A stretch of DNA of 64,000 nt, from contig DS990263.1 of the NCBI GenBank assembly GCA_000155435.1, positions 546,300-610,299 of the forward strand. The letters run 5' to 3'. The DNA comes from Clostridiales bacterium 1_7_47FAA. Its GTDB lineage: Bacteria; Bacillota; Clostridia; Lachnospirales; Lachnospiraceae. Each line of letters opens with the position of its first letter. Positions within the stretch are counted from its first letter, which is position 1. Shown here piece by piece: positions 1,948-5,618 of the stretch. A program made the translations under genes and the position numbers. The notes below the pieces were generated by a model. It was not told where the DNA came from and did no database searches. It saw nothing but the letters and a program-made list of their open reading frames with translations.

Positions 1948-2868
1948 TTAAAACTCCTTCCATTTTTTACGGTACAGCCTGGATGGACGATGGCCCTCGT
2001 TCCCTGTGTAGGAATCTGTCTCCTCCACAAGGGATGCTGCCTTCCTGCGGAAAGCTGCCTTTAAAAGGCGTTTTCCCAGAATCACCTCATATACCTGCTG
2101 CAGCTGTGTCAATGTGAATTCAGAAGGCATCAGGTGAAGGGCCAGTCCGCTGTACTCAACCTTGCCCCGGAGCCGTTCCAGGGCATAGGTGATGATTCTG
2201 GCATGGTCAAAAGCCAGGCCATTGTTTTCCGTTATCTCATATTCTGTAAATGTGCCGTTTTCTGTTTTGGTCATGGATTTCTCAATGACAGAGGAAAGGC
2301 AGATGTTGTCCGAGGTTAATTCAAGCTTATAATGCTGGATACGGACAACCTTTGGTTCCTCTCCGTCCGTGGGAACAGGATAATCCGTGTGTTCATCCAT
2401 CAGGTAGAAGGAAATGTGGAACCAGCGGGCGTTATCCGCGTCATCCCCTGCTTTTATCCGGACTTTGGAACTGTCAATAAGCGCCATATAAGAACAACTC
2501 ATGACCCAGGTGCGTGGGTCGCGGTCTGGGTCGCTGAAGGTATACAGCTGTTCCATGTATACATGGTTAAGCCCGGTTTCTTCCATGAGTTCCCTTCTGG
2601 CTGCCTGTTCCGTGGTTTCGTCCGGCCGTACAAAGCCGCCGGGCAGGGCCCAGGAACCCAGATAGGGATGAACCCCTCTTTGGATTAACAGTATGCCCAG
2701 TTCCTTTTCAGGCAGCTTCCTGTAATTATCTTCTGTTTCCTCCAAAACCGTGAAAATAGCCATGTCGGCAGCCATCGAGGGCCGCTCATAGTGGCCGGGA
2801 TCATAGGATTGTAAATACTCGGCTTCAGTCAGGCCATTCCGGTCAAGTATCCTGGTGTCCCTGTCCAT
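1948..2868 (-). CDS. NrtR-like Nudix protein: ADP-ribose-type Nudix domain plus C-terminal winged helix
   Basis: Counting from the ATG at 2868, residues 78-100 form a complete Nudix box GX5EX7REUXEEXGU (GFVRPDE...RRELMEETGL), so catalytic residues are intact. The C-terminal third (ALERLRGKVEYSGLALHLMP onward) resembles the winged-helix DNA-binding domain of NrtR regulators, which sense ADP-ribose and control NAD genes. The protein may therefore be a hydrolase, a regulator, or both. The start at 2868 has GGAGG 10 bases upstream; an ATG at 2877 overlaps the previous stop but sits too close to the same site. It lies between NADAR and PARG genes with only a few bases at each junction. The nested palindrome at 3491-3531 is a candidate operator (inference). 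Confidence 0.8.
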   Translation of the reverse strand: MDRDTRILDRNGLTEAEYLQSYDPGHYERPSMAADMAIFTVLEETEDNYRKLPEKELGILLIQRGVHPYLGSWALPGGFVRPDETTEQAARRELMEETGLNHVYMEQLYTFSDPDRDPRTWVMSCSYMALIDSSKVRIKAGDDADNARWFHISFYLMDEHTDYPVPTDGEEPKVVRIQHYKLELTSDNICLSSVIEKSMTKTENGTFTEYEITENNGLAFDHARIITYALERLRGKVEYSGLALHLMPSEFTLTQLQQVYEVILGKRLLKAAFRRKAASLVEETDSYTGNEGHRPSRLYRKKWKEF

Positions 2869-2873
2869 CCCTG

Positions 2874-3437
2874 TCATGCCTCCTTTTCCTGTTCTATAAG
2901 GATATCCCTGGCCTCGGTCAGGGCAAATCCCAAAAGATTCGTGCCTTTCCACTTTACCGGGCATTGCACATCCGGATTACTCTTTCCCATACCAATTCCC
3001 CAGATGCGGTCCCTTGGGCTTGCCTCCACCAATATCCTGTTCTTAGTGGAACGCAGGAATTCCCACAATTCCGGATTCTGGGAAAACTTTGCCATGCTGG
3101 CTTGTTTGACAATGCCATAGCATGCATTGTCCCATGTCTCTTTATCAAAATTACGGACACTCCGGCCATATGCCTTCATGGCCTTTGGCTGCTTTGCCTC
3201 CAAAATCAGTGAAAGCATCTCCTGGTCATGGAACATCCTTGCCTTTTCCGCCATCATGAACTGCTCTGCGCAGGAATATGTAATCCCATCTATTTCAAAG
3301 CAGGCCATCCACCACTGGCTCAGGCAGGTTTCGGTTATACGCCCGCTGGAATCCGGTGTGTGGCCCCAAAAGAACAGGAATTTATAATGTTGTCCTTTGT
3401 TATATGCCTTTTTCAAATCTTCCAATGAATAAACCAT
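2874..3437 (-). CDS. NADAR-family protein (YbiA-like N-glycosidase fold)
   Basis: 187 residues of typical NADAR (DUF1768) length. Recognisable features are YKFLFFWGH near the start, SQWWMACFEIDGITYSCAEQFMMAEKA in the middle, and LRSTKNRILVEASPRDRIWGIG plus WKGTNLLGFALTEARD near the end. Members cleave N-glycosidic bonds: YbiA acts on toxic riboflavin intermediates, and other members remove ADP-ribose from guanine in DNA. As first gene of an operon with an ADP-ribose Nudix and a PARG-type hydrolase, an ADP-ribose substrate is the more likely reading here (inference). A GGAGGAG site lies close to the ATG, and the promoter at 3530-3558 drives the unit. Confidence 0.85.
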   Translation of the reverse strand: MVYSLEDLKKAYNKGQHYKFLFFWGHTPDSSGRITETCLSQWWMACFEIDGITYSCAEQFMMAEKARMFHDQEMLSLILEAKQPKAMKAYGRSVRNFDKETWDNACYGIVKQASMAKFSQNPELWEFLRSTKNRILVEASPRDRIWGIGMGKSNPDVQCPVKWKGTNLLGFALTEARDILIEQEKEA

Positions 3438-3881: not shown

Positions 3882-3923
3882 TAAAAACCGGCAGACAACT
3901 GCAATCCACAGCTGCCTGCCGGT
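3882..3923 (-). terminator. Intrinsic terminator of the vat gene
   Basis: Minus-strand hairpin with stem CCGGCAG/CTGCCGG (arms at 3916-3922 and 3888-3894) followed by a T5 run at 3887-3883. It lies 16 bases after the vat stop. Confidence 0.8.
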
Positions 3924-3938
3924 ATAAACCCATCCTAT

Positions 3939-4580
3939 CTACAGATGAAGCCTCTTTAATGAATCAATATCCCCTGCCTGTATGAACGGTATGGCAGATG
4001 AAATCTTCTCCACCGGCCAGTCCCACCACTTTATCTCCTGTAATGTTTTGACATCTTCATCTGAAAAACGTTTCCGTATCATCCTGGCCGGGACACCTCC
4101 TACGATTGTATAAGGCGGCACATCCTTGGTGACAACGGCCCTGGTTCCGATGATGGCCCCGTCGCCAATGGTGACCCCTGCTAAAATAACAGCCTCATAT
4201 CCAATCCACACATCGCTGCCAATGACAATATCACCCTTATTGTCCCACGCCATGTCCGGTCTCATGCCATGTCCCCACTCTTCATAAAACAAGGGGAATG
4301 TATAGGTGGCGAGGGAACCCATGGTGTGGTTCGCACTGTTGAACAGGAATCTGGCGCCGCATGCAATGGAACAGAATTTCCCGATGATAAGCCTGTCCTT
4401 ATTGATTGGATAATGGTAAAGGACATTATTTTTTTGAAAATCCCTTGGGTCATGGACAAAATCGTTATAAATGGTAAATTCCCCTATTTCAATATTGGGA
4501 TTCCCAATTACATTCTTCAAATATACAATCTGCGCATCTCCCGTTCTGGGATAAATCCTGCTGCTGTCTGGAATAGTCAT
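3939..4580 (-). CDS. vat: Vat-family streptogramin A O-acetyltransferase (xenobiotic acyltransferase, left-handed beta helix)
   Basis: 213 residues starting MTIPDSSRIYP, like known Vat proteins. Conserved Vat features are NPNIEIGEFTIYND (about 28-40), LIIGKFCSIACGARF (64-78), the catalytic His85 in NSANHTMG, hexapeptide repeats of the left-handed beta helix (GDIVIGSDVWIGYEAVILAGVTIG), TRAVVTKDVPPYTIVGGVPA, and a C-terminal KWWDWP. Family activity: acetyl-CoA-dependent O-acetylation of group A streptogramins such as virginiamycin M, giving resistance. Close relatives in the wider CatB-like xenobiotic acyltransferase group can have other substrates, so resistance is a prediction. It is a single-gene unit with a strong GGAGG site, a leader ORF upstream (4603-4647) and a terminator downstream. 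Confidence 0.8.
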   Translation of the reverse strand: MTIPDSSRIYPRTGDAQIVYLKNVIGNPNIEIGEFTIYNDFVHDPRDFQKNNVLYHYPINKDRLIIGKFCSIACGARFLFNSANHTMGSLATYTFPLFYEEWGHGMRPDMAWDNKGDIVIGSDVWIGYEAVILAGVTIGDGAIIGTRAVVTKDVPPYTIVGGVPARMIRKRFSDEDVKTLQEIKWWDWPVEKISSAIPFIQAGDIDSLKRLHL

Positions 4581-4625
4581 TATAATCCTCCTGATTCATC
4601 AATTATTGTTTTGGGACTATTCCAG
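4568..4625 (-). promoter_or_regulatory. Candidate attenuator hairpin pairing the leader ORF with the vat start
   Basis: On the minus strand CTGGAATAGTC inside the leader ORF (4625-4615) is the exact reverse complement of GACTATTCCAG (4578-4568), which begins at the G of the vat ATG. The 11-bp stem would trap the start codon in the stem and the GGAGG site in the 36-base loop. A ribosome stalled on the leader would expose the site, as in translational attenuation of erm and cat genes. The pairing is seen in the sequence; the mechanism is inference. Confidence 0.65.
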
Positions 4626-4647
4626 TTAATGCAATGCAGAGTTTCAT
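4603..4647 (-). CDS. 14-residue leader peptide upstream of vat
   Basis: ATG at 4647 preceded by a strong AAGGAGGC site, then MKLCIALTGIVPKQ and TAA at 4605-4603, 22 bases before the vat start. Its last third encodes the strand that pairs with the vat start codon region. Short leader ORFs with perfect ribosome-binding sites are the hallmark of antibiotic-induced, ribosome-mediated attenuation. Too short to recognise by homology; supported by position, ribosome-binding site and pairing. Confidence 0.65.
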   Translation of the reverse strand: MKLCIALTGIVPKQ

Positions 4648-4745
4648 ATAACCCGCCTCCTTTTCTGTCTTATATCAAATATATTACAGGAACAAAAGAA
4701 AGAATGGAATACCAAATAAAAAAATATCCAGACATCCAGGCAACC

Positions 4746-5618
4746 TCATTCAATGGGCGCCTGATAAAACCCGCCATAAAAATTCTCCGTCTTAATCATG
4801 TTCACAATCACATGCGGATCCTGTTCCCGCATCAAATGGACGATATCATTCACCTCATAGGAGGAAACCACTGTGTGCAGCAGGTACATTTTCCTGTGGC
4901 TGTAGCCGCCCATGGCGTCCACACAGGATATCCCATGCCTGTACTCGTTCACGTAAGCCTTAATCACGTCCTCTGCATTGGTGGTGGTAATCTGCAGCGT
5001 GACCCGCTCATACCTGTGGTGGAAGGCAGATATGGCCTTGGTGGAAACAAACTGGAATAAGATGGAGTACCCAGCATAAAGCCATCCGAACATATATCCG
5101 AAAATACAAAGGATGACACAGTTGCCTGCAAACACATATTCCCATATGGATTTCCCGGTCTTGTTGGACACATACAGCGCAATGAAGTCAGTGCCGCCTG
5201 TGGAGGCATTTCCGCGCAGCGCGATGGCGATGGCAATGCCGTACAGGAATCCGCCGAACACCACATCCAGAAGCACGTCATTGAACAGCGGCTGGAAATG
5301 GAACACCTTCAGGAAAAAGCTGGCAAGGAATACCTGCAGCATGGAATAAAAGGTAAAACGCATGCTGATGCTTTTACTGCACAGGATGGCCACAGGTATG
5401 TTGAGGACCAGCATTCCCAGGGACGTGGAGATATTATGTCCATATAAAGAGGCAATCCTGTCAATCAGGATTGCCACGCCCGTGAAACCGCTGGACAATA
5501 GGTTGGCTGGCCGGATGAATGCCTGGATTACATAGGTCTGGAGCAGTGCGGAGGCGATGACCGCTGCAATGGTTATGAGCCTGCGCACCATGATATTCTT
5601 CTTGTATTTGGCAATCAT
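4746..5618 (-). CDS. YitT-family membrane protein (DUF161 plus C-terminal DUF2179)
   Basis: 290 residues. About five hydrophobic segments occupy residues 10-200, with the YitT landmarks QAFIRPANLLSSGFTGVAILI and ALRGNASTGGTDFIALYVS. The soluble C-terminal domain (RYERVTLQITTTNAEDVIKAYVN...VVSSYEVNDIVHLMREQDPHVIVNM) is DUF2179, a PII-like fold. Family function is unsettled. The start overlaps the cutC stop by ATGA, so translation is probably coupled. It is the last gene of a long minus-strand series; no clear terminator follows. Confidence 0.85.
   Translation of the reverse strand: MIAKYKKNIMVRRLITIAAVIASALLQTYVIQAFIRPANLLSSGFTGVAILIDRIASLYGHNISTSLGMLVLNIPVAILCSKSISMRFTFYSMLQVFLASFFLKVFHFQPLFNDVLLDVVFGGFLYGIAIAIALRGNASTGGTDFIALYVSNKTGKSIWEYVFAGNCVILCIFGYMFGWLYAGYSILFQFVSTKAISAFHHRYERVTLQITTTNAEDVIKAYVNEYRHGISCVDAMGGYSHRKMYLLHTVVSSYEVNDIVHLMREQDPHVIVNMIKTENFYGGFYQAPIE

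Follow-up and report, generated by a model that had tools for sequence, protein, structure and literature searches.

The question raised by this locus is whether a Vat-like resistance gene in Clostridiales bacterium 1_7_47FAA is controlled by a translational attenuator of the kind known from erm and cat genes, where, in the textbook picture, the Shine-Dalgarno (SD) sequence of the resistance gene is paired. We looked for five features of such a system: a short ORF with its own SD directly upstream of the gene, a helix between leader and initiation region kept by compensatory change, an SD inside that helix, a leader peptide conserved up to a stall site, and opening of the helix by a stalled ribosome. 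Coordinates refer to the window, meaning the whole 64,000-nucleotide stretch of DNA that was analysed.

A leader ORF and an 11-bp stem before a Vat-like gene

The gene, a vat-like xenobiotic acetyltransferase of 213 aa with its ATG at 4580 (4580-3939, minus strand), was identified by profile match and structure alignment. Its best NCBIfam match was Vat_ABCDEFH (NF000311), which at 241.7 bits led the 32 NCBIfam families matched (CatB, 185.3 bits) but fell short of the curated cut-off of 300. The protein aligned over nearly the whole of the VatA and VatD structures, including the ANH-x-M stretch, whose His we take to be the catalytic residue. In a 90-row tree built by a quick method, its clade of 81 rows stood clearly apart from vat(E), the S. 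suis vat genes and proteobacterial relatives, and the nearest plasmid and phage matches had 69.1% and 70.7% identity. An M-K/R-x-C leader was found neither before vat(E) (L113) nor before two phage-borne vat genes of S. suis (L114, L115), nor at two other loci, L116 and L117. The gene is best named Vat-like, with acetylation of streptogramin A inferred. Elsewhere in the window (1948-3437, minus strand), a NADAR-domain gene lies beside a NUDIX gene with an NrtR-type DNA-binding domain, their ORFs overlapping as listed.

The first-pass annotation had placed a 14-codon ORF with a strong SD 22 bases before vat, and these coordinates were correct. The ORF, MKLCIALTGIVPKQ (14 codons plus TAA; 4647..4603, minus strand), and its SD, AGGAGG (4661-4656, minus strand), can both be read directly, and the leader stop is separated from the vat ATG by 22 nt. 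The first of the five features is thus present, with translation of the ORF itself inferred. A possible extended -10 promoter element, TGATATAAG (4669..4677, minus strand), was recognised by eye only and is absent from the promoter predictions for the window. After vat, terminator prediction returned an intrinsic terminator-like hairpin of 17 pairs (3923-3887, minus strand).

Leader nt 23-33 within codons 8-11, CTGGAATAGTC (4625-4615, minus strand), are perfectly complementary over 11 bp to vat nt 3-13, GACTATTCCAG (4578-4568, minus strand), which run from the last base of the vat start codon to the first base of codon 5. In predicted folds these arms enclose a 36-nt loop (4614-4579, minus strand) that holds the leader stop codon and, unpaired, the vat SD, AGGAGG, which is read directly at 4592-4587 (minus strand). 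Sequence and fold therefore bear out the earlier description of a leader arm exactly complementary to a segment starting inside the vat ATG, with the vat GGAGG in the loop. They also mean that an SD inside the helix, as looked for above, is not found here: the stem takes the G of the ATG, codons 2 to 4 and the first base of codon 5. In the RNA model, the vat initiation region as a whole is nevertheless hard to open.

When the leader stretch was shuffled with its dinucleotides kept, 4 of 20,000 sequences gave a perfect match of at least 11 bp; among the 2,871 ATGs in the window 2 have one, presumably including vat itself. The fold of a 110-nt stretch had z = -2.5 (3/200 shuffles equally stable) and that of a 221-nt stretch z = -1.37 (19/200). 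No Rfam match was obtained (4227 models, E up to 1, window 3900-5000). An 11-bp complementarity in a single sequence is uncommon and not conclusive; it is conservation that decides.

Conservation of the leader, the stem and the peptide

Orthologues were taken in by script at ≥60% identity (90 loci), and 17 loci under 60% were left out. A leader was recognised by a regular expression requiring any start, K/R, any residue and Cys. Five loci could not be assessed by the script (L015, L033, L034, L061, L122); in L122 a leader and a stem of 11 pairs are nonetheless present, and in L061 a leader can be made out by eye. L118 and L120 were dropped as copies of L080 and L083, and L029 with its copy L077 (both MRICRA, 4/11 pairs) and L044 (5/11 pairs) were reassigned to the group without a leader. 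L140-L142, found by leader pattern and all with 11 pairs, stand outside the counts. This gave 82 distinct assessable orthologues, the window included, of which 43 have the leader and 39 do not. The compared bacteria come mostly from the gut, and by record title the leader carriers include Anaerostipes hominis, many Oscillospiraceae MAGs, an Erysipelotrichaceae MAG and Enterococcus asini. A peptide MKPCIVAF in L065 and L066 sits, by eye, inside another gene.

The first-pass annotation held that orthologues keeping vat and losing the leader or the complementarity would refute the proposal. Orthologues that keep vat without the leader do exist (39/82), but in these the complementarity is absent along with it. 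On the tree the leader label needs 12 changes, at least 4 of them on starred branches, so that leader and stem were apparently lost or gained together several times. The surroundings of the two groups were also recorded. The script found an upstream ORF in 38 of the 43 leader loci, in every case ending at least 81 nt before vat; these ORFs are varied, with some common to near relatives. At 14 of the 39 leaderless loci the end of the upstream ORF falls between -25 and +4 relative to vat and thus abuts it, which makes vat look like a later operon gene there; the abutting ORF is ABC-F-like by eye in two of the 14. In L149 (1445-5142), a leaderless vat appears to follow a MATE-like and an ABC-F-like gene in one operon, the gene names being assigned by eye. 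In leaderless L009-L012, L042, L043, L047, L051 and others, vat directly follows one conserved gene whose product ends ...WATRVSFVYS...TVYYVENN.

The stem is retained in 42 of the 43 leader loci, where 9-11 of the 11 pairs form in one common register (11/11 in 34 loci, 10 in four and 9 in four); the exception, L014, has 7/11 pairs in the fixed register and 9 in another. The 5' arm is best placed 22 nt after the leader start in 42/43 loci. The distance from leader start to vat start ranges from 58 to 79 nt, so that the loop varies in length and both arms keep their register. Third codon positions face third positions (24-12, 27-9, 30-6, 33-3), and with the two coding arms paired in this way much change is silent in both proteins. 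Pair 24-12, for example, is T-A in 22/43 loci and C-G in 21/43; pair 27-9 is kept in 43/43 and pair 30-6 in 41/43. Changes in amino acid are matched as well, the leader GIV becoming DIV, EIV or LIA where the vat TIP becomes TIS or TIR (L046, L084, L057).

Over the alignment, 96.6% of 473 cells are paired, against 85.5% (sd 0.9) on shuffling (0/500 as high), and sliding the arms by 1-3 columns leaves only 22-46% paired. The covariation score was 0.403 vs 0.189. Changes on both sides of a pair account for 54/473 cells, over 6 of the 11 pairs, and RNAalifold, with no structure supplied, returned exactly these 11 pairs. Among the 28 distinct combinations of arms the mean is 10.46 of 11 pairs, compared with 9.10 (sd 0.15; 0/20,000 as high) when the arms are re-dealt. 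A tree-based comparison on the starred branches gave 9 independent contrasts over four pairs (3, 2, 1, 3), where the partner moved in the same direction in 8.8 of 9 on average and in the opposite direction in none; in the remaining 0.2 (of 3, at one pair) the partner did not differ. No single pair is significant alone in this test, there being too few contrasts. The alignment of orthologues that had been proposed as a check has thus turned up the compensatory changes it was meant to reveal, with the helix recovered unprompted, and the helix between leader and initiation region is kept by compensatory change.

Upstream of the 5' arm it is the peptide that is conserved. Codons 1-6 (4630..4647, minus strand) follow the pattern M-K/R-R/L-C-I-A/V across orthologues with synonymous changes: K/R2 and C4 occur in 43/43 leaders, I5 and A/V6 in 41/43 and R/L3 in 40/43, positions 2, 3, 4 and 6 each using several synonymous codons. 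The conservation of K/R2 and Cys4 is partly by construction, because the regular expression fixes both; I5, A/V6 and R/L3 were free. Arg3 predominates (31/43), and the leader in the window has Leu3. Codon 7 is not conserved and is a stop in 5/43 leaders. We conclude that the peptide is conserved up to the predicted stall site (residues 2-6, with the reservation just given), and by their patterns of change codons 1-6 look selected as peptide and codons 8-11 as RNA. The Ile5 codon (4633-4635 in the window) is ATT in 40 of 41 vat leaders, vs 19.1 (sd 2.9) expected from the Ile usage of the vat genes; in L141, outside the counts, it is ATA. This preference would point to a codon-level constraint at the predicted P-site codon, for which we have no explanation.

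Modelled ribosomes on vat and Mef-like leaders

To place the stall site, the leaders were folded in ViennaRNA with a ribosome masking 15 nt on either side of the first base of the P-site codon, and the start site taken as -14 to +12 for vat and -16 to +4 for the Mef-like genes described below. The median energy needed to open the vat start site was 14.4 kcal/mol without a ribosome, 14.8-15.6 with the P site at codons 1-3, falling to 8.5 at codon 4, to 6.7 at codon 5 and to about 6 at later codons; in leaderless orthologues the median was 7.3 kcal/mol (n = 37). At codon 5 the energy falls by more than 0.5 kcal/mol in 42/43 loci, and in the window it goes from 16.5 to 5.1 kcal/mol with the modelled ribosome. 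The mean unpaired probability shows a smaller effect (median 0.34 to 0.50), with values in the window of 0.45 free, 0.60 at codon 5 and 0.43-0.47 at codons 7-8. Opening of the helix by a stalled ribosome is thus supported, by the RNA model only. According to the same model, the stem would stay closed if the ribosome stopped at codons 1-3 and would open if it stopped at codon 4-5 or later.

The same leader pattern also occurs before another resistance-like gene. Searches with it found 8 places in 195 genomes (4 vat, 2 Mef-like and 2 chance matches, L110 and L112), 10 places in 9 of 392 genomes (5 vat, 2 Mef-like and 3 chance, L121, L123 and L124), and 11 places in 10 of 391 genomes (4 vat, one of them the window, 2 Mef-like and 5 chance, L123, L143, L146, L147 and L148). 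A reversed-pattern control matched 0, 2 and 4 genomes of these sets, respectively, and a further 58 genomes yielded only two loci, both already known. The Mef-like gene encodes an MFS protein for which Mef(A) is the best named resistance family, at a score far below its cut-off; in a class-wide search it was present in 21/381 genomes. By eye, 27 of 35 Mef-like loci (L105, L119, L128, L130, L131, L133, L150-L170) were assigned a leader M-x-L-C/A-I-A/V-x-A-P/L-C-K/R. The other eight lack this type: none was assigned in L129, L132 and L134, and L135-L139 have another. These five are more distant MFS relatives; their leaders, built around LCT(R/K)S and lying no more than 155 nt before the MFS start, also show inverted repeats on inspection by eye.

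Leu3 is found in 21/27 of the Mef-like leaders, Ala, Ser, Met, Val or Ile stands in place of Cys in 9/27, and Ile5 is ATT in all 21 that have Ile5. The spacing leaves room for two hairpins in 24/27 (120-207 nt) and not in the other three (63-67 nt). Five long-spaced leaders were folded, and the Mef-like genes of Clostridia (L105, L119, L128, L150-L170) mostly have an apparent ermC-like four-segment attenuator. Over codons 1-12, the opening energy of the Mef-like start site has its minimum at codon 5 in 14/27 and at codon 4 in 8/27. In L157, whose motif lies one residue nearer the start, the minimum is at codon 3, tied with 4, and in L131, with the motif three residues further away, at codon 8; the short-spaced L164, L167 and L168 show a sharp drop by codon 5 and their lowest values at 11-12. 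In the 24 long-spaced leaders, a modelled ribosome beyond codon 6 mostly re-closes the start site. The Mef-like loci are related to one another and so are not 27 independent witnesses. The vat and Mef-like RNAs differ and yet agree, which points to one stall site with Ile5 in the P site, to within one codon; because the footprint size is assumed, the predicted stall codon could be off by one.

Proposed mechanism, rival readings and known attenuators

We consider it probable that the vat locus is a translational attenuator of the erm/cat kind. The first-pass annotation had already assigned it this architecture, an assignment strengthened by the compensatory changes, the conserved peptide and the modelled opening in 42/43 loci, and qualified by the orthologues without a leader, by an SD that is not sequestered and by the modelled failure of a ribosome on codons 1-3 to open the stem, with induction by any drug remaining an inference. 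Our best reading is that the sensor peptide is new and that the stem occludes the start codon rather than the SD. At rest, leader nt 23-33 would be paired with the G of the vat ATG and codons 2-5, so that a 30S subunit could reach the SD in the loop and could not seat the start codon. A ribosome-binding drug, or something like one, may then arrest a ribosome on the leader after fMet-Lys/Arg-Arg/Leu-Cys-Ile, with Ile5 in the P site and Ala/Val6 in the A site. The leading edge of the arrested ribosome would cover most of the 5' arm, the stem would fall apart and vat would be translated. The arrest itself and a drug as its cause are inferred, as there are no expression or stalling data.

Much of the model would also suit plain translational coupling, in which any ribosome translating the leader opens the stem and vat output follows without a drug-induced arrest: the leader in the window has a good SD, and in the model the vat stem is opened by a ribosome at codon 4-5 or at any later position. 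Coupling, however, needs no conserved residues 2-6, which are kept even by the leaders stopping at codon 7, and the re-closing of most long-spaced Mef-like sites past codon 6 means that these sites need a ribosome to be held near codon 4-5. We regard coupling alone as unlikely, without dismissing it. Sensing of cysteine or charged tRNA-Cys at the Cys4 codon, as in an amino-acid starvation attenuator, could account for a Cys4 present in every vat leader, if one sets aside that the search pattern required it. A ribosome waiting at the Cys codon, though, has codon 3 in its P site, where the stem stays shut (14.8 vs 14.4 kcal/mol free), and the Mef-like leaders that replace Cys speak against it too; we think such sensing very improbable.

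That the complementarity is a mere by-product of conserved protein ends, without RNA function, might be argued from how common GIV in the leader and TIP in Vat are at these positions. This is already contradicted by the joint variation of the arms, at synonymous positions as well as where residues differ, and by their better fit as found than when re-dealt, and the argument is scarcely credible. Transcription attenuation, as in vmlR or msrD, is common among drug-induced resistance genes (PMC9226507, PMC10314930). It deserves very little credence here, because terminator prediction found no intrinsic-terminator-like site between leader and vat.

Neither a vat leader nor these peptides appeared in the titles and abstract starts of the open literature searched, subscription papers being mostly outside that scope. 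The closest layout is that of cat (cat-86 type), where the 5' arm of a hairpin lies in the leader ORF, the 3' arm covers the initiation region, and a ribosome stalled at about codon 5-6 opens it. The vat locus likewise has one hairpin so arranged; it differs in its leader peptide, in a stem that takes the G of the ATG and codons 2-5 with the SD in the loop, and in a gene that is Vat-like and not a classical cat. The ermC layout comprises four segments, as many of the Mef-like relatives appear to, whereas vat has a single stem, an unrelated leader peptide and a modelled arrest near codon 5. In ermC-type systems, a drug-stalled leader peptide is combined with an RNA switch that exposes the SD of the resistance gene (PMC10219788).

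Small ORFs also precede cplR, vmlR, vmlR2 and lsaA, genes for pleuromutilin, lincosamide and streptogramin A resistance whose drug range overlaps that of vat. As given in PMC10201436, cplR combines translational and transcriptional attenuation, and the uORF consensuses of the four genes comprise 3-4 residues (MR[I/M], MIN, MK[L/Q], MAGN) read by post-initiation inhibitors with little context. Unlike these, the ribosome on the vat leader must reach codon 4-5 in the model, and no terminator-like site was predicted between leader and gene. The six-residue msrD leader MsrDL (MYLIFM) stalls at its stop codon (PMC10314930); it resembles the vat leader as a very short arrest peptide, and its stop-codon stalling provides a precedent for vat leaders ending after six residues. 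It is unlike the vat leader in its peptide, in acting by transcriptional attenuation and in sensing macrolides. The same paper describes Leu or Ile at position 3 as critical in erythromycin-resistance pentapeptides; Leu3 is matched by most Mef-like leaders and by the leader in the window, and the vat leaders with Arg3 depart from it.

A wider reading, which we offer only tentatively and would rate as doubtful, is that M-(K/R)-(R/L)-C-I(AUU)-(A/V) is a modular drug sensor of gut Clostridia, mounted on different RNA switches before two unrelated resistance genes, and that what it senses is a tunnel-binding partner drug. Since the modelled stem withstands a ribosome on codons 1-3, such a partner may be the drug sensed; that is, a streptogramin B or a macrolide may switch on resistance to streptogramin A. 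If this were true, one half of a synergistic natural drug pair would be sensed and the other half resisted.

With an arrest motif of five residues and one A-site codon, and a predicted stall codon, drug specificity becomes directly testable. Should the attenuator hold, many Firmicutes, including some only distantly related, would have a Vat-type gene made drug-inducible by a conserved leader, and resistance that is silent until induced could, by inference, escape susceptibility tests made in the resting state.
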